Below the pieces are notes generated by a model. That model did not search any database. It worked only from the letters and a program-made list of their open reading frames with translations, and had not been told where the DNA came from. This document shows positions 417 through 18,903 of a stretch of DNA of 20,577 nt, piece by piece. How positions within the stretch are numbered: the first letter of the stretch is position 1; the number at the start of each line of letters is the position of its first letter. The translations under genes and the position numbers were made by a program. This DNA is from a virus, in the IMG/VR virus record IMGVR_UViG_3300037011_000333, positions 1 to 20,577 of that record. One strand, given 5' to 3'.

Positions 417-706
417 ACAAAATGTTTCAATATCAATCGGTAATGTTCTTTATTTGTCTTCTGAAATCCGACTTTACGATATAGTCCCTTAGCAACCTTG
501 TTGTCTGAATTTGCTACTAACTCAACGGAATCCACGCAATACTCTTTGGCAGCAGCAATAGCCTTTTCCATTAAGACAGTACCAATCCCTTTATGTCGTT
601 TATTTTTATCTACTTCGACATTGTCTATCATCATTATTCTTGCCTTACCATTGTAGTAAATAGTGCCTATACATTCTCCGCCATCTACGACAATTGCGAT
701 TTGCAT
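413..706 (-). CDS. GNAT-family N-acetyltransferase
   Basis: A 97-aa protein with the GNAT fold signature. The strand IMMIDNVEVDKNKR is followed by the acetyl-CoA pyrophosphate loop R-H-K-G-I-G (about residues 37-42), then helix TVLMEKAIAAAKEY. Motif B follows near the C-terminus (VELVANSDNKVAKGLYRKVGF), with the Asn and the LYRKVGF element common in this family. It is short for a GNAT, with a reduced N-terminus. The start at ATG 706 overlaps the end of the aminotransferase gene by 22 nt, and its stop overlaps the next gene (ATGA). Because it directly follows a sugar-type aminotransferase, N-acetylation of an amino sugar is the likely role, but the substrate cannot be read from sequence. No strong ribosome binding site is visible, so it is probably translationally coupled. 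Confidence 0.85.
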   Translation of the reverse strand: MQIAIVVDGGECIGTIYYNGKARIMMIDNVEVDKNKRHKGIGTVLMEKAIAAAKEYCVDSVELVANSDNKVAKGLYRKVGFQKTNKEHYRLILKHFV

Positions 707-1755
707 TCGTTTAATATCCCTGTTATATATTTGACATCATCAATGCTCATTTTTGGATGCAATGGGAGATATAAATACTGCGATTCTAATCTATCCATGT
801 TAGGTAATTTCTGTCTGCCACCAAAGACTTTAAAGACGTCATTGCGGATCTGTACCAGATCACATTCAATACCATGCTCCCTGAGATATGTCATGGTTTC
901 ATCGCGGTAATCAGTAAGGATTGCCAATAACCAATAACTGCCACCACAAATCACATCTATATCTTGAGCATAAGTTTCGGCAAGTATCCTACGATATCCC
1001 AGAACTTCATCAGAATGTCTGAGCCCGACGATTCCCATAGTAGCAGCAATATCATTCATGTGGAATTTGTAACCGGCTTCCTCGATGTCCATCGTCATCT
1101 TGTGGTTATTGAGCCATTGCCAGTTTGCACGTTTCTTGGCTTCCCTATCAATACCGAACCAACGCAGTTTTTTCGCCCTTTGATAATCTTCCTCGTTTCT
1201 GAGGACTAACATCCCGCCATCGCCTGTTGTGAAATGCTTGATAGCCTGGAAGGAATAAGCAATAATGTCTCCATGTATTTCACTTACTCCAAGCGATTGA
1301 GCTGCATCTATGATGACTGGGATATTACTTTCTTTTGCTAAATCGAAAATCCTGGTATCAACAGGAATCCCGCCCAAAGTAACGACGACAATCGCCTTTG
1401 TATGTTTTGAAATTTTGGATTCAATATCGCGATAACTCACAGTTAAGTTATCGTTAATGTCTATAAACTTAATCTTTGCTTTGCGTCTTAATAGCGGGAT
1501 GGATGTCGCTGTACAAGAAAAGACTGGGGTAAGAACTTCATCACCTTCACCGATACCAACAAGATGATATGCTAATTCTAAGGCTGCCGTACCACTATTA
1601 ACAGCCAGACAGTATTTATAGCCGAACTTTTTTCCAAATTGCTTTTCAAATTCATCTACTAAGGGTCCTTGTCCTATCCAACGAGTATCAAATACCTTTG
1701 ATAATTCAGCTAACCACTCATCTTTATAGATGTTGGGATAGAATAAACTTATCAT
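685..1755 (-). CDS. DegT/DnrJ/EryC1/StrS-family PLP aminotransferase (sugar aminotransferase)
   Basis: A 356-aa member of the DegT/DnrJ/EryC1/StrS family, which makes amino sugars by PLP-dependent transamination of keto-sugar nucleotides, usually with glutamate as donor. Landmarks are the N-terminal GP-x-V-DEFEKQF segment, SGTAALELAYHL (residues 54-65), the PLP-nitrogen aspartate in IIDAAQSLGV (D150), and the Schiff-base lysine K173 in SFQAIKHFTTGDGGM. Length is near the family's usual 360-400 residues. The C-terminal domain seems slightly shortened. The start ATG 1755 overlaps the radical SAM stop by ATGA. No dehydratase or other keto-sugar-producing enzyme is in the window, so its substrate must come from the host or from genes further left. 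A role in perosamine-like or deoxyamino-sugar synthesis is an inference. Confidence 0.9.
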   Translation of the reverse strand: MISLFYPNIYKDEWLAELSKVFDTRWIGQGPLVDEFEKQFGKKFGYKYCLAVNSGTAALELAYHLVGIGEGDEVLTPVFSCTATSIPLLRRKAKIKFIDINDNLTVSYRDIESKISKHTKAIVVVTLGGIPVDTRIFDLAKESNIPVIIDAAQSLGVSEIHGDIIAYSFQAIKHFTTGDGGMLVLRNEEDYQRAKKLRWFGIDREAKKRANWQWLNNHKMTMDIEEAGYKFHMNDIAATMGIVGLRHSDEVLGYRRILAETYAQDIDVICGGSYWLLAILTDYRDETMTYLREHGIECDLVQIRNDVFKVFGGRQKLPNMDRLESQYLYLPLHPKMSIDDVKYITGILNECKSQLS

Positions 1756-2525
1756 ATATTACGATTGCACTCCCTGCATGGAATCATGCTAAAATCAAGT
1801 GCTCTATTCTTCTTCCTTAACCATTTAGACTCATTCCATATTTCTGTTAGAGTCTGCTTATTAGCATCCCCTAATATCAATTTTCCATCATAGTCCATAC
1901 AGCAGGGAACTACCCTGCCATCCCATAATATAGTCATAGCACCTAACAATGCTCTGCAAGGCTTCCTTACCCCATTCCTCTCAATATCACAGTGTCGTGA
2001 TCCACCCCAATTCTTAAATTCACTAAATCTTGCATTCTTCCCCCATAATTTTTTGAATTGTTTTACTTCATGCTGATTCTCATCTACAACTACCATTGAA
2101 ACGACGACATGAGAATTCGATTTTTTAATTAAATCCTCTACATTTGCTTTGACTGTTTCATAGTGTGGTCCTCGTGTGATCTTGTCGTAAGTTTCTTTTG
2201 TTGCTGCATTTACACTACAGCAAAATAAACCAATGTTAGGATATTTTATAAGTCGGTCAACATCTATAAGTTCAGCATTAGTGAAGATATGTACTACTAC
2301 TTCTTGAGATTTCAAATAATCTAACCACTGCCAAATCCTCGGGAAGACAAAGGGTTCACCATTTAAAAAGGGTATAAAGACTGAATCTTTAATCTCTTTC
2401 CCTTCTTTTATTATCTTGTAAAATAATTCATCACTCATTTCTCCCTTTGGTCGCGTCATATCATATCGTGGGCAGAAGGTACATTTGGCGTTACATGCGG
2501 TAGAACTCTCGAATTGAATTTTCAT
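1752..2525 (-). CDS. Radical SAM protein with SPASM-like C-terminal cysteines
   Basis: From ATG 2525 this is a 257-aa radical S-adenosylmethionine enzyme. The [4Fe-4S] motif C-x3-C-x2-C is at residues 11-18 (CNAKCTFC), followed by a GEMSDELFYKII segment and the NGEPFVFP element typical of the core barrel. The C-terminal part has further cysteines (VVPCCMDYDGKLILGD and IPCRECNRN), matching a SPASM/twitch auxiliary-cluster domain and the LGDANKQTLTEIWN segment that often accompanies it. The ATG overlaps the glycosyltransferase stop by ATGA, which fixes the start against an in-frame upstream TTG at 2534. SPASM proteins modify peptides or sugars. Given neighbours on both sides, a sugar substrate is likely but unproven. 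Confidence 0.9.
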   Translation of the reverse strand: MKIQFESSTACNAKCTFCPRYDMTRPKGEMSDELFYKIIKEGKEIKDSVFIPFLNGEPFVFPRIWQWLDYLKSQEVVVHIFTNAELIDVDRLIKYPNIGLFCCSVNAATKETYDKITRGPHYETVKANVEDLIKKSNSHVVVSMVVVDENQHEVKQFKKLWGKNARFSEFKNWGGSRHCDIERNGVRKPCRALLGAMTILWDGRVVPCCMDYDGKLILGDANKQTLTEIWNESKWLRKKNRALDFSMIPCRECNRNI

Positions 2526-3301
2526 AACCGCCAACGCGGTATTATTTCTTTTTCGTAATATTCACGCCAAACATCAAGTGCATATTTATAACCTTGCTCG
2601 CAATTCGCAGGGTTTTCTTTCGTGCCATTGTTATGAGTACGAGAAAAAGAACGATGCTTATGGGAAAACCACGTGTTTTTATTCACCATCAATTTCCCGC
2701 CAGCTTTCCAAGTCTTAAATACCATTTCGTGAGAATCCTGTATCAGAGGTCCATACCCTTCCGTCTGTAATTCCCCGATGACTTTATCCCACCACGTTCT
2801 ATGCATACACCACATTGAACCCTGCATAGCCATTGTTTCACTGATAGGTACGTCTTTCTGTTCTTCATCTCTACTTGCCCATCTCTGCCCGGCGAATTTT
2901 ACGCCACCTTGAATTACCAGTTTCTCATGTTCAACAGGGGGTTGGTCATCCATAACTTTCCACTGCACCGGATCAAGGAAATATCTCTTTGCAGTTACTA
3001 TCCAGTTTTCTTCGCATTGTAAGCTGAGAATAGTGTCATATCCATCGCCAAACATACAATGTTCATCAATACGCATTATATATTTACCCCTGGATACAAG
3101 AACTCCAGCATTGATAGCACCGCGCATTCCTCTGTTCTTACCGAGATGAACAATGCGGACTCTTTTATCGTCATTCAATTTGGTCCAGTATCCGTCAAGC
3201 ACGGCAATAACTTCTACTTCGCCCCTGGCATTGTTGAGCAATTCATCAATGGTTTTCTGCAAATAAATTGGATGATGTGATGGAATTATTGCTGATATCA
3301 T
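2522..3301 (-). CDS. GT-A glycosyltransferase (family 2/27-like, DXH motif)
   Basis: A 259-aa GT-A glycosyltransferase. The N-terminus has the family 2 pattern: IIPSHHPIYLQKTIDELL, then VIAVLDGYW around residues 31-38, RGMRGAINAGVLVSRGKYI, and the metal-binding site as IDEHC (D79-E80-H81). A D-x-H rather than D-x-D motif recalls polypeptide GalNAc-transferases. The later stretch (about residues 160-215: GSMWCMHRTWWDKV, then SHEMVFKTWKAGGKL and FSHKHR) also resembles the acceptor-side Gal/GalNAc-T motif of that group. The GT27-like reading is inference, because I cannot run an alignment. No signal peptide or membrane segment is seen, so it is cytoplasmic. It overlaps both neighbours by ATGA. 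It is the first gene of the glycan module, directly after the lysis genes. Confidence 0.85.
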   Translation of the reverse strand: MISAIIPSHHPIYLQKTIDELLNNARGEVEVIAVLDGYWTKLNDDKRVRIVHLGKNRGMRGAINAGVLVSRGKYIMRIDEHCMFGDGYDTILSLQCEENWIVTAKRYFLDPVQWKVMDDQPPVEHEKLVIQGGVKFAGQRWASRDEEQKDVPISETMAMQGSMWCMHRTWWDKVIGELQTEGYGPLIQDSHEMVFKTWKAGGKLMVNKNTWFSHKHRSFSRTHNNGTKENPANCEQGYKYALDVWREYYEKEIIPRWRL

Positions 3302-14847: not shown

Positions 14848-15210
14848 TCAGAATGGATCCAGTTCCCCGGTTTCCTCAGCCGGCTGTTCTTCCCCGCCAT
14901 TTTTCTTCTTCCCCACAAACTTTATTTCCTCAGCGACAACCACTGTCTTGCTCCTTTTCTGTCCATCGGATTCCCATGTCTCTGTTTTCAATCTGCCACG
15001 ACAAAGCATTTGCGACCCCTTGCTGAGATATTTCCCGGCATTCTCCGCCAGCTTCCCCCAAGCGGTTATTTCGGCAAAGAATGTTTCTTCGGTATCTTTG
15101 TACTTCCTGTTTGTCGCAACTCCAATCTTTGCAACGGCAGTACCGGAAGACGTGTATTTAAGATCCGGATCCCTTGTTAAATTCCCTAATATTACTACAC
15201 TATTAAACAT
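14848..15210 (-). CDS. ssb: Single-stranded DNA-binding protein
   Basis: A 120-aa SSB from ATG 15210 (GGAG five bases upstream; an in-frame GTG two codons earlier is less likely). The OB fold is clear: MFNSVVILGNLTRDPDLKYT, SSGTAVAKIGVATNRKYKD, FFAEITAWGKLAENAGKYLS, KGSQMLCRGRLKTETWE. A short acidic tail ends in ELDPF, a shortened form of the DDDIPF tip that binds replication and repair partners. It is much shorter than bacterial SSB (about 175 aa) because the linker is nearly absent, as in many phages. It overlaps the RusA gene end by 16 bases. Confidence 0.96.
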   Translation of the reverse strand: MFNSVVILGNLTRDPDLKYTSSGTAVAKIGVATNRKYKDTEETFFAEITAWGKLAENAGKYLSKGSQMLCRGRLKTETWESDGQKRSKTVVVAEEIKFVGKKKNGGEEQPAEETGELDPF

Positions 15211-15659
15211 TTCCACTCCATTTCTGGTGTCATTTCTGTTACAAGAATATCGGCACCTGGCTTATCATCTGTGTATTTTTTTATGACGACCTGCATGATT
15301 ACCTGCGTGTCATCTTTCCATAAAATTTTTGTCAGTGCATCTTCTGTACTGCGAATCATTTTCGTAGTGTCGGGTTTGACACCCGGATAGACAGGCGCTG
15401 ATAGTTTCAATAAGTTAGCATTCTTTCCCGATCCATAATGACCCTTCGGACGTGCTATCCAGAAAATTATTCTCATGAAAAGTGGACCGGTCAATAGCGG
15501 ACCATTGAAAACTTCCTGACAAGCATGCCGGACGTCAGCTCTCCAGTCCTTGCTTTTCTTGCAATCTTCAGTCACAATTGCCCTGTTTGTTCCCTTAATC
15601 ACAAAGGCACGCTTGGATCCACCTGGTCTTGGAATTCCATATACCCGAAAAGTTACCAT
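15195..15659 (-). CDS. rusA: RusA-family Holliday junction resolvase
   Basis: A 154-aa protein from ATG 15659 (MVTFRVYGIPRPGGSKRAFV...), with AAGGAG seven bases upstream. The frame is open further up to 15836, but that stretch holds the tRNA-like RNA. RusA motifs are the KPDTTKMIRSTEDAL segment (PDxxN-like followed by the ED-A-L aspartate) and LWKDDTQVIMQVVIKKY (the catalytic DD). RusA cuts four-way junctions symmetrically and resolves recombination intermediates before packaging. It lies next to SSB and downstream of replication genes, as in many temperate phages. Confidence 0.92.
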   Translation of the reverse strand: MVTFRVYGIPRPGGSKRAFVIKGTNRAIVTEDCKKSKDWRADVRHACQEVFNGPLLTGPLFMRIIFWIARPKGHYGSGKNANLLKLSAPVYPGVKPDTTKMIRSTEDALTKILWKDDTQVIMQVVIKKYTDDKPGADILVTEMTPEMEWKCLIV

Positions 15660-15675
15660 GATCTCCTTTTTATTT

Positions 15676-15842
15676 TGCCGGAGGCAGGATTCGATACCTG
15701 CACGATGAGCAACGGGCAAAGCCACACTGTACTCATCCACCCCTCTGGGGTTGCGTCTACTCTTCACATGGCTCGGAAGTCCGATTGCTGCCCGCGGCTT
15801 CCAATTTAAGCTGTAAGCGCCATGTGCTTCCGCCACTCCGGC
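15676..15842 (-). ncRNA. tRNA-Leu-like structured RNA, about 167 nt
   Basis: On the minus strand the first 15 bases (GCCGGAGTGGCGGAA) and the last 13 before the discriminator region (CCTGCCTCCGGCA) match tRNA-Leu. They form a perfect 7-bp acceptor stem GCCGGAG/CTCCGGC (15842-15836 with 15683-15677). A T-arm GCAGG/CCTGC encloses TATCGAAT (15701-15684), one base longer than a normal T-loop. A D-arm-like GCG...CGC with an 11-nt loop and a CTTAAAT loop (as in a UAA anticodon) follow the 5' end. There is no normal anticodon stem. Instead an 8-bp helix CACATGGC/GCCATGTG (15826-15819 with 15772-15765), a small ACCCC/GGGGT hairpin (15739-15751) and a long arm GATGAG/CTCATC (15704-15737) occupy the middle. 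No CCA is encoded. It fills a 192-base gap between two genes. Not a standard tRNA; function unknown. Confidence 0.65.
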
Positions 15843-15851
15843 ATCCCTTTG

Positions 15852-16235
15852 TTAGACCGGTGGTTCAGCCGGTGGCTCAACCGGTGCGTTCGGCACAATA
15901 TCCGCCAACGCAGTTGCAATGGCAATAACCTTGTTTAGCTTTTCTCTTTCAACTGGAGTGATCGCTGGATTCTGAAGCGAAGAAATTAAATTAATAATCT
16001 CGGCGCTCGCTTCTTCCAATTTTACGGTAACAAAATCTAAAGCATCGGATAATTCTGACATGTGTTTTTTCACCTCCTTTCTTGTTTTGTCAATGGCGAG
16101 GACGACAAATCCGGTTGCTACCCAGATTGTCGCCATAATGCCATTTCCAAAAATAATGCTGAGTACAGCAAGCGATAATGTGAGAAACCAAATGATGCTG
16201 ATGTAATGATTGTTTGGATTAAACTTTTGTATCAT
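15852..16235 (-). CDS. Two-helix membrane protein with internal start site
   Basis: From ATG 16235 (AAGGAGGTG five bases upstream) this is a 127-aa protein. It has two adjacent membrane helices (about residues 10-31 and 34-50), a basic KTRKEVKKH stop-transfer, and a soluble helical domain with a Pro/Glu/Val tail (NAPVEPPAEPP). An in-frame ATG at 16061 (MSELSDALDFV...) has its own perfect Shine-Dalgarno, AAGGAGGTGA at 16079-16070, so a 69-aa soluble form may also be made. I recognise no family. Size and topology resemble holin or superinfection-exclusion type membrane proteins, but the neighbours are replication genes. Confidence 0.65.
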   Translation of the reverse strand: MIQKFNPNNHYISIIWFLTLSLAVLSIIFGNGIMATIWVATGFVVLAIDKTRKEVKKHMSELSDALDFVTVKLEEASAEIINLISSLQNPAITPVEREKLNKVIAIATALADIVPNAPVEPPAEPPV

Positions 16236-16254
16236 TAACACCTCCTTAGTTTTT

Positions 16255-16419
16255 TCATGTCGCATACACAATGCTAAACATCATGTCACATTTTTTGCAT
16301 TTGCATACATAAAAAAGCGTTGAATCGGCTTGCTCGAATGCCTCCAATCTCTCGAATAATACAGCATCTGCATTGCCACAATACTTGCAGACATAATTTT
16401 CAAAGAGTTCTGATCTCAT
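16255..16419 (-). CDS. Small zinc-ribbon-like protein (54 aa)
   Basis: A 54-aa ORF from ATG 16419 that overlaps the primase-helicase stop as ATGA. It begins MRSELFENYVCKYCGNADAV and ends with FYVCKCKKCDMMFSIVYAT. Two cysteine pairs (CKYC and CKCKKC), about 25 residues apart, are the layout of a zinc ribbon (CxxC...CxxC). Such small proteins often bind nucleic acid or partner proteins. Coupling to the primase-helicase gene suggests a replication-associated role, which is inference. Confidence 0.65.
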   Translation of the reverse strand: MRSELFENYVCKYCGNADAVLFERLEAFEQADSTLFYVCKCKKCDMMFSIVYAT

Positions 16420-18002
16420 TGTTTCCAATACCATGTGCCTTCATTTTTCAGCACAACTCCCCTTTCCATAACAAAATCTATTTTTGCACCTGTCGGATCT
16501 ACCGAATATTCGTGCCAGTTTTTCGCCTTTACAATTGTCAGCGTCCCATAGTCTATGCTCAGGTAAAGTCGTGCTTTTTCTTTCGTAATTGCACCGCCTC
16601 GTCCCATATCTGTTGTAGCATCCTTTTTCTGCAATGCAATAATGGCTATTCCTTTTCTCAGTTTATCAAAGATTTTTTTAATCCACCCGCCTACCTTGTA
16701 GAAGTCCTCATGTATTTCCATAAAATCAATTATATTTACTGCATCCGGAAGAATAATATCCCACCAGTCTTGACTTCGTTTTATCCATTCTACTTTTTCT
16801 CTGAACGAAGCCAGTCCAGTACCAAAACCCTTTAGACGTATTGACAATTCGTGGCTATCCATTTCTGAGGATTGATATCTAACGTGAAAATTGTCTTTAT
16901 TTTTCACTGCGAAATTAAGAAGCATGGCAGTTTTCCCAGCATTGCTCGTACCAGCAACGACAGCAATGTTTCCTTCGTATAAATCTGCGAATTGCTCTAT
17001 CCCAAAAGGCCATTTGAAATTTAGAGGCTGCGGAGTCTGATCAGACAGTTGGATATACTCAATCGTTTTATCGAGAAGCCGATAAACACCAATACCTTTG
17101 TCTCTCTCGATTATTCCTCTCCGGGATAATTCCATGACTGCTGCCCGGCCTTCACCTTTCTGTTCTGTATTCTTCAGATTGAGTTCATTAAAACAGGATT
17201 CTATGCGAAACGTCCCGTCCTGCGCTATGCACCATTGCGAAACTTCTTGCTTCACGTTGCGAGGTTGTTCAGATGCTCGCCTTAATGCACTTAGAACTTT
17301 CTGTTCAGCTTCTTTTAGTGGGAATGGTGGGTGGCATGCCAGTGCAAGTTTTACAAGTGTTTCATAGATTTCCTCCTGTGGAATCCGGGATTTTACCAAA
17401 GCATTCGCTATATGAAACATATCTTCATCTCGCCGACCTTCTGTAAACATCAGACCGGTTGGCGATGGTACCATAATTTCTTTTGAACTTATTTTCTTTG
17501 GTAAAACGTCATAGAGACTTTTTGGTATTCTTGGTATTTCCATCTGACCAATATCAATACCCTCATTCCATTCATACCTCTTGCCATTGGCACCAACTGA
17601 GGGTGGCGCAATAATCATCCCCCCATTGGCGCGAATATCCACTTTTGTAAAACCATCTATCCCGGCTTTTGTAATCAGATTAGAATCGAGACACCTAAAC
17701 CACCAATGTTGTCCCCCTCTCGGAGAATTAACAATAGGGACAATTAGCGAATCTGGCACAAAACTTTCAATCTCCTTTTTTCCTTCCTCACTGTCGATGT
17801 CAATCACAGCCACACCTGATATCTGTCCGGTAATAACACCGATATTAGCATCCGGCCACTTTTTCCACCAATCCTTGATATCTTGTTCTGTCGGAAGCTT
17901 TTTCTGATAAATAGCCCAATCAACAAGAGATTTTTTATCTTTTGGAATAACAGGTATTACCGAAAACCCTTGCCGTAGATATTTAATTGCCTGCTGCATC
18001 AT
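16416..18002 (-). CDS. Primase-polymerase fused to RecA-fold helicase
   Basis: A 528-aa fusion from ATG 18002, chosen because GAGGGG lies four bases upstream; an upstream ATG 18023 lacks this. The N-terminal Prim-Pol (archaeo-eukaryotic primase-like, bifunctional primase/polymerase) domain has the catalytic DID at residues 68-70 (VAVIDIDSEEG), SPRGGQHWWF (93-102) and VDIRANGGMIIAPPS (121-135). A primase-C-terminal helical region follows around 190-245. The C-terminal ATPase has Walker A GTSNAGKT (351-358), a Walker B-like IIDFMEIHEDFYK (about 424-436) and ALQKK (456-460), as in DnaB/RecA-fold helicases. It probably primes and unwinds at the phage fork. It overlaps the initiator-like gene by 20 bases. 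Confidence 0.92.
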   Translation of the reverse strand: MMQQAIKYLRQGFSVIPVIPKDKKSLVDWAIYQKKLPTEQDIKDWWKKWPDANIGVITGQISGVAVIDIDSEEGKKEIESFVPDSLIVPIVNSPRGGQHWWFRCLDSNLITKAGIDGFTKVDIRANGGMIIAPPSVGANGKRYEWNEGIDIGQMEIPRIPKSLYDVLPKKISSKEIMVPSPTGLMFTEGRRDEDMFHIANALVKSRIPQEEIYETLVKLALACHPPFPLKEAEQKVLSALRRASEQPRNVKQEVSQWCIAQDGTFRIESCFNELNLKNTEQKGEGRAAVMELSRRGIIERDKGIGVYRLLDKTIEYIQLSDQTPQPLNFKWPFGIEQFADLYEGNIAVVAGTSNAGKTAMLLNFAVKNKDNFHVRYQSSEMDSHELSIRLKGFGTGLASFREKVEWIKRSQDWWDIILPDAVNIIDFMEIHEDFYKVGGWIKKIFDKLRKGIAIIALQKKDATTDMGRGGAITKEKARLYLSIDYGTLTIVKAKNWHEYSVDPTGAKIDFVMERGVVLKNEGTWYWKQ

Positions 18003-18903
18003 GGGACCCCTCGGTAAAAGCATCTAAATTCATAGAGGATATCTTGGCCAGTTTTTCTTTAGATAAATTTAAAGGCTTTGTATTTGTTTCGATTTTGCTT
18101 TCATCTTTTCGTTGTATATCTACTCTTTTTGCCTTATCTTGTGATCGCAATAGCCAGTTTACTATAAATCTTTCATAATTGGACTTTCGATTTTTTGGAT
18201 TGGCTAATAACCATGCTTCCATAGCTTTAAACTCAGAATCAATATCTAAAGCTGGAAACTTTTCTTTTAACAGCGAGTGTTTTTGTGTAGTTAAATTTTT
18301 AAACTTAAATGTTTCCCAACAAAAATCAATTTTCGTTTCTGCAGTAGTATTCTTCTTCTTTAAGTATAGTTTAGTTCTGGCATTGCTTACAGCATTGCTT
18401 ACAGCATTGCTTACAGCATGTGATTTTACCAGTGTTTCCTCAGATTCTTGATTTGTAAAGTTAATATAGGATTTATCGGGTAAATTAAAAATAAGATTTT
18501 TTTGGTTTTCCAAAATACAAGCATTGCTTGGAGCATCAATTAAGTCCTCAAGGCTCTCTCTACCCCATCTGGCATTGGCCATCATTTGTGCTTTTTCCTT
18601 ATAAGCCACTATATGTCCTTCATGGTCAATCCAGTCATGAATATAAAATCCATCTTTATTATTTTTCAGAAATCCTACTTTAATAAGTGCTGCTATCATC
18701 TCGCCTTCATTTCCCCACCATCCAACGATAGACTCAATCTCCTGGGCAGAATACCCGGTCAGCTTCCCGTCTCTTGCATGATACTTACCAACGTAAGCCC
18801 ATATTTTGATCGGTATTACCTCCGAGCCCTTCCCCAACAGGCCAATCAGTCTGCGCGTCTTTGGGTGATTGAAATAATCTAAATCGAGATTAAGATAAGG
18901 CAC
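17983..18903 (-). CDS. Replication initiator/helicase-loader-like protein with internal repeats
   Basis: A 306-aa protein from GTG 18903. The N-terminal 100 residues (MPYLNLDLDYFNHPKTRRLI..., TGYSAQEIESIVGWWGN, GFYIHDWIDHEGHI) resemble the winged-helix domain of phage replisome organisers (Lin1244/Lin1753-type N-terminus). A low-complexity linker contains HAVSNAVSNAVSNA, encoded by 12-bp direct repeats. The C-terminal domain (TQKHSLLKEKFPALDIDSEF, MEAWLLANPKNRKSNYERFI, VNWLLR) has the pattern seen at the end of DnaD/DnaT-like loader proteins. Coupling to the primase-helicase fits a replication-start role. The repeats may be origin iterons, as in lambda O. Confidence 0.75.
   Translation of the reverse strand: MPYLNLDLDYFNHPKTRRLIGLLGKGSEVIPIKIWAYVGKYHARDGKLTGYSAQEIESIVGWWGNEGEMIAALIKVGFLKNNKDGFYIHDWIDHEGHIVAYKEKAQMMANARWGRESLEDLIDAPSNACILENQKNLIFNLPDKSYINFTNQESEETLVKSHAVSNAVSNAVSNARTKLYLKKKNTTAETKIDFCWETFKFKNLTTQKHSLLKEKFPALDIDSEFKAMEAWLLANPKNRKSNYERFIVNWLLRSQDKAKRVDIQRKDESKIETNTKPLNLSKEKLAKISSMNLDAFTEGSHDAAGN
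18380..18419. repeat. 12-bp direct repeats (candidate origin iterons)
   Basis: On the plus strand GCATTGCTTACA occurs three times without gaps at 18380-18391, 18392-18403 and 18404-18415, followed by a partial GCAT. A fourth related site, GCATTGCTTG plus GAGCAT, lies at 18521-18536. A very A/T-rich stretch (about 18460-18520) lies between them. Iterons next to an A/T-rich segment inside an initiator gene is the lambda-type origin layout. Confidence 0.6.

Follow-up and report, generated by a model that had tools for sequence, protein, structure and literature searches.

A tRNA-Leu-like RNA without an anticodon arm and a family of tRNA-shell RNAs in viral contigs

We identified a 167-nt RNA on the minus strand of a 20,577-nt viral contig (IMG/VR record IMGVR_UViG_3300037011_000333, positions 1 to 20,577; hereafter the window). 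The sequence-only reading had taken it for a functional RNA derived from tRNA-Leu and lacking the anticodon arm, and at the sequence level this is well supported by homologues, by strong covariation in the acceptor and D-stems and by a D-loop helix that recurs in relatives with other sequence. A wider search of viral contigs recovered 61 distinct RNAs (69–245 nt) with the same tRNA-like outer parts, which we call the tRNA shell. The shell recurs in dozens of viral contigs and its stems covary, which is more than chance would give, and we regard the family as almost certainly real. It is widespread and apparently unannotated, occurring in viruses of bacteria and probably also of archaea, and it is probably new; we found no description of it in the open-licence literature. 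tRNA finders and Rfam have skipped these RNAs despite their presence in well-sampled E. coli phages, a Lactobacillus phage and a methanogen virus. We are much more certain that the family is real than of the mechanism that we propose for it below.

Architecture of the RNA in the window

The RNA runs from 15842 (G1) to 15676 (N73, an A) on the minus strand. It is flanked on the 5' side by a small ORF without family match (15852..16061, part of ORF 15852-16271) and on the 3' side by a gene for a RusA-like Holliday junction resolvase (15195..15659; PHROG 140, E=1.4e-30), both also on the minus strand. Only 9 nt separate it from the stop of the small ORF and another 9 nt from the GGAG Shine-Dalgarno of rusA (15663-15666; ATG at 15657-15659), so that, as had been read from the letters, it fills the intergenic gap directly before rusA. 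Promoters and terminators near the RNA were not above shuffle level, and its interior had no stretch of 11 nt or more in common with the rest of the window on either strand.

Unconstrained folding of the minus strand gave a class II-like cloverleaf (-70.4 kcal/mol, z = -3.04; 1 out of 200 shuffles equally stable). This fold recovered the acceptor, the D-stem, the T-arm, a long variable arm and, where a tRNA has its anticodon arm, a stub. The acceptor strands GCCGGAG (15836..15842) and CUCCGGC (15677..15683) form 7 out of 7 pairs, and this stem covaries across the family. It is followed by a U8-G9 linker (15834..15835); U8 is invariant in the family alignment (A1), where position 9 is A or G. 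The D-arm opens with UGGCGGAA, and its stem pairs GCG (15831..15833) with a CGC (15753..15755) that terminates the tRNA-Leu-like GUAGACGC; all 3 pairs vary on both sides across the family. The T-arm, GCAGG-UAUCGAAU-CCUGC (15684..15701), has an 8-nt T-loop and is the defining motif of the family. The long variable arm (15704..15737) pairs GAUGAG (15732-15737) with CUCAUC (15704-15709) and was placed by folding in the class II position, as in tRNA-Leu. The anticodon-arm position is taken by the hairpin ACCCCAGAGGGGU (ACCCC-AGA-GGGGU, 15739..15751) in both the MFE and the centroid structure, that is, by a 5-bp stub with a 3-nt loop and without a 7-nt anticodon loop. The acceptor, the start of the D-arm, the T-arm with its 8-nt loop, the GGGG hairpin and the GAUGAG/CUCAUC arm had all been proposed from the sequence and were all found, on the minus strand; the RNA indeed encodes no CCA.

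Two earlier assignments had to be moved. The 8-bp helix CACAUGGC (15819-15826)/GCCAUGUG (15765-15772) is real, but it does not stand in place of the anticodon stem: since the D-stem GCG/CGC closes around it, it is an insertion inside the D-loop (15765..15826). The UUAA that had been likened to a UAA anticodon lies within this insertion and not at the anticodon site, and is most likely a chance occurrence. The RNA combines the 7-bp acceptor and 5-bp T-stem of a tRNA with neither a 7-nt T-loop nor G18G19, the docking partner of the T-loop in tRNAs, which is absent from the D-loop outside the insert. The family features are all present: the 7-bp acceptor, UG, the GCG D-arm, GCAGG-UAUCGAAU-CCUGC and no anticodon.

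The sequence-only reading had proposed ARAGORN and Rfam runs, and these gave no fit to an ordinary tRNA or a group I intron: ARAGORN called 0 tRNA genes and no tmRNA in the window, and the Rfam tRNA, tmRNA and intron (including group I) models did not match at the locus. The sole local Rfam match at this RNA was the manA RNA (RF01745), which aligned over its full length but stayed below threshold, with 19 bits where the cut-off is 55.2 (E=0.0067 on 321 nt). Among the family, about 20 of the 61 loci were checked against Rfam and none matched. The window RNA contains complementary stretches for a candidate pseudoknot between the D-insert and the variable arm (CGGGCA/UGCCCG, by analogy with manA), but the shuffle P was 0.14 and the pairing was not seen in L148, L184, L194 and L260 (L numbers denote our loci).

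A covarying shell around a replaced interior

The lead to relatives was the 8-nt T-loop UAUCGAAU. A first T-arm pattern in IMG/VR returned contigs L148, L149 and L155, which carry the same shell, and a wider pattern combined with a shell filter on viral contigs gave the 61 RNAs. The constancy of UAUCGAAU across members is by construction, as they were collected through that one sequence; other 8-nt T-loops exist, such as UAACCAAU in the methanogen virus vir555 and UAUUGAAU in a second, tandem member at L171:1761-1905. The T-loop motif occurred exactly once in 39 out of 40 virus records. In INPHARED, BLASTN with the window RNA, L148 and L155 gave no full-length relative; the phages phAPEC8 and SAC12B were reached through short T-arm matches alone. 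The loci of proteins related to RusA, SSB and the primase yielded no such RNA where searched (the RNA searches covered part of these loci), and the terminase search found none. Bacterial genomes held 10 exact T-arm matches, of which only L285 passed the shell filter.

In the family alignment, 99.4% of the pair cells were paired, against 73.4% after shuffling, and 7 out of 7 acceptor pairs and 3 out of 3 D-stem pairs varied on both sides among relatives. Both of these statistics are partly built in, as acceptor and T-stem pairing were filter criteria. In a cleaner test, the 5' end was fixed by TGGCGGAA alone and paired with the seven bases following the T-arm: the acceptor was perfect (7/7) in 31 out of 36 distinct loci, while 1000 shuffles (re-pairings) gave a mean of 1.6 and a maximum of 6 perfect acceptors.

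The consensus consists of a 7-bp acceptor whose sequence is free, then UG or UA, a D-arm GCG-GAAgaUAGA-CGC, a variable interior, GCAGG-UAUCGAAU-CCUGC, the closing acceptor strand and any N73. G18G19 is usually missing from the D-loop (GG counted in 6 out of 40). CCA was encoded exactly at positions 74-76 in 8 out of 57 members (P=3e-6), compared with 0-2 members at each of 18 other offsets, which argues that the 3' end acts as a true tRNA end. Position 73 was A in 21 members, C in 17, T in 13 and G in 6, and this lack of conservation counts against recognition by one synthetase.

The sequences of close relatives show that the shell is kept while the interior is replaced outright. Between L189 and L212, the upstream flank is 94% and the downstream flank 99% identical, with an interior of unequal length and 48% identity; L214 and L275 have 93% upstream and 44% interior identity. 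The stability of the interiors was barely above that of shuffles (mean z -0.52, P=2e-4), a weak hint of a structured payload. Together with L184, L260, L194, L222 and, by eye, L148, the window RNA forms a sub-group in which GCGGAAG is followed by a helix and then ...ACGC. All carry this inserted helix at one and the same D-loop position, each with a different sequence; this recurrence in sister RNAs supports the 8-bp helix of the window as real.

Genomic setting and named viruses

We found 11 members in phage tRNA arrays, 1-23 nt from tRNAs (L162, L167, L173, L180, L182, L201, L205, L206, L211, L253 and L280), and others in gene gaps. No PHROG recurred in more than 2 of 42 downstream or 3 of 42 upstream neighbourhoods, same-strand downstream ORFs began 14-925 nt from the members, and one neighbour gene of a member encodes a tRNA nucleotidyltransferase. 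Two of the arrays hold further RNAs: a GOLLD RNA (164.8 bits) at L182:685-1176 and a permuted tmRNA (RF04321, 60.2 bits) at L211:4747-4901. At L170:605-738 and L262:696-831, a second tRNA-Leu-like RNA lies near the member (135-137 nt, canonical D- and T-loops, variable interior).

Three named viruses carry members of the family or close variants of them. Phage phAPEC8 (JX561091) carries an unannotated anticodon-less member of 76 nt plus N73 between tRNA-Asn and tRNA-Thr (L162:1452-1528). The same T-arm is present in dozens of records of Escherichia phages, and the RNA had no match in 5,426 E. coli genomes; with this member the question becomes testable in laboratory E. coli. Lactobacillus phage SAC12B has an anticodon-less member in a tRNA array (L294:1111-1230; acceptor TCATTAG/CTAATGA by eye), where several ordinary tRNAs are likewise unannotated. 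In Erwinia phage Faunus (L164:1443-1526) we noted a further tRNA-like RNA that lacks an anticodon; its T-loop is canonical, and it has a loop GGGTGAGTAACGC that resembles a conserved stretch of 16S rRNA.

In the methanogen virus vir555, the member is located just upstream of a methyltransferase gene and overlaps an annotated hypothetical ORF. The primase of the window (16416-18023) was closest to those of Methanosarcina virus MetMV (34.6%, 97% covered) and vir555, which makes a methanogen, an archaeon, a possible host of the window virus; the terminase and portal of the window had no match. By eye, positions 685-3301 of the window hold consecutive aminotransferase-like, radical SAM-like and glycosyltransferase-like ORFs.

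Proposed role and comparison with known RNAs

We propose, with about even confidence in the statement as a whole including its mechanism, that the family members are trans-acting RNAs matured like tRNAs, whose shell protects a fast-evolving interior. They keep the acceptor stem, U8-R9, a short D-arm and the T-arm of a tRNA (tRNA-Leu-like in the window), and the anticodon arm and the D and variable loops would have been replaced by a lineage-specific interior. tRNA-processing enzymes would excise the RNA from its transcript (RNase P at G1, with 3' trimming) and CCA would be added where it is not encoded. As the missing D-loop GG and the 8-nt T-loop alter the elbow that RNase P and the CCA-adding enzyme normally read, this processing may differ from that of tRNAs. 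The product would persist as a stable non-decoding RNA active in trans, with the shell as a scaffold for maturation and stability and the interior contacting a varying target that is probably host-encoded. That the shell is conserved and the interior swapped points to an arms race.

The strongest rival, which we consider possible though clearly less probable, is a decoy or sponge that mimics the acceptor/T-arm half of a tRNA and titrates or jams a protein that binds tRNA, such as a defence nuclease that cleaves it; the interior would then vary under little constraint or block product release. The restriction of conservation to the tRNA half, the 3' CCA of some members and the usual single copy per virus record are in line with a decoy, as is the occurrence in bacterial immunity of nucleases that cut tRNA tails, not anticodons (PMC12851939). 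However, neither the acceptor sequence nor N73 is constrained, we identified no matched defence gene, and under an arms race one would expect changes in the bound shell too and not in the interior alone.

A cis-acting leader, in which the structure would control the translation or the stability of the gene that follows (rusA in the window) as proposed for manA, is improbable. The position directly before the rusA Shine-Dalgarno and the full-length sub-threshold manA match speak for it, manA being classed as probably cis-regulatory (PMC2864571). The idea, already raised by the sequence-only reading, is weakened by the variety of downstream genes, by their widely differing distances and by the several members that sit between tRNA genes; for the window RNA itself, given its place next to rusA, a role in cis keeps some probability.

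We think it very unlikely that the RNA is a charged tRNA mimic, to which CCA would be added and which a synthetase (LeuRS) would load with an amino acid for non-ribosomal use. The tRNA-Leu-like D-arm, the long variable arm and A73 of the window RNA would suit LeuRS, and the bacterial enzyme does not need the anticodon, but across the family N73 and the acceptor are free to vary, and the shortest members have no long variable arm. A decaying or intron-bearing tRNA gene has hardly any standing left: the tRNA-Leu resemblance is clear and the anticodon gone, yet decay is contradicted by recurrence and by covarying acceptor and D-stems, and an intron by members of 69–72 nt, which could not accommodate both an intron and an ordinary anticodon arm, and by the unmatched Rfam intron and tRNA models at the locus. 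Least credible of all is a tag-encoding tmRNA-type RNA, which has the acceptor, T-arm and long interior in common with the family and nothing beyond this shell to support it, as neither ARAGORN nor Rfam called a tmRNA in the window and members of 69–77 nt are too short for a tag reading frame.

Beyond the trans-acting reading itself, we tentatively suggest, with less than even confidence, that viruses infecting bacteria, and at least one methanogen virus, may exploit the tRNA maturation pathway as an all-purpose scaffold for delivering effector RNAs that are exchanged rapidly; T4 RNAC and manA would then be special cases. If true, nature would have its own counterpart to the tRNA scaffold used in the laboratory.

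Among known RNAs, bacterial tRNA-Leu shares with the window RNA the 7-bp acceptor, U8-G9, the GCGGAA...UAGACGC D-arm and the long variable arm, whereas the window RNA has no anticodon loop, no G18G19, an 8-nt T-loop and interior insertions. Like tmRNA, it has a tRNA-like acceptor and T-arm around a non-tRNA interior, but it matches no tmRNA model and has no demonstrated tag frame. The manA RNA (RF01745), one of two precedents, resembles it in that its acceptor-like stem leads into UG and a GAA motif, in the lack of an anticodon loop, in a long helix reminiscent of a variable arm and in an enlarged T-loop (GGUA...AAUCC). It differs in its 5-bp acceptor, its 5' hairpin, an interior that is conserved in the examples read and its treatment as cis-regulatory. 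The manA RNAs themselves (L020:1501-1698, L023-L142) look tRNA-like, with acceptor-UG-GAA, a T-loop starting UA and, in those read, GGCA/UGCC pairing; a tRNA lay within 600 nt at 12 out of 120 manA loci. CMCompare reported a weak link between manA and tRNA (PMC3692125), and our comparison raises the possibility of a tRNA-like superfamily that includes manA.

The other precedent, similar in architecture by eye, is T4 RNAC (rnaC, species 1 RNA), a stable 139-nt RNA that is phage-encoded within the T4 tRNA cluster and has tRNA-like ends, no anticodon and a large non-anticodon interior. It has 5 out of 7 acceptor pairs and a T-arm CCGGG-UUCGAAU-CCCGG, and differs from the family in its canonical 7-nt T-loop, its two U-U acceptor mismatches and the lack of the GCGGAA..UAGACGC D-arm. 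RNAC is small, is expressed late and has no known function (PMC9697503, PMC3014915); the family described here gives a handle on this decades-old question.
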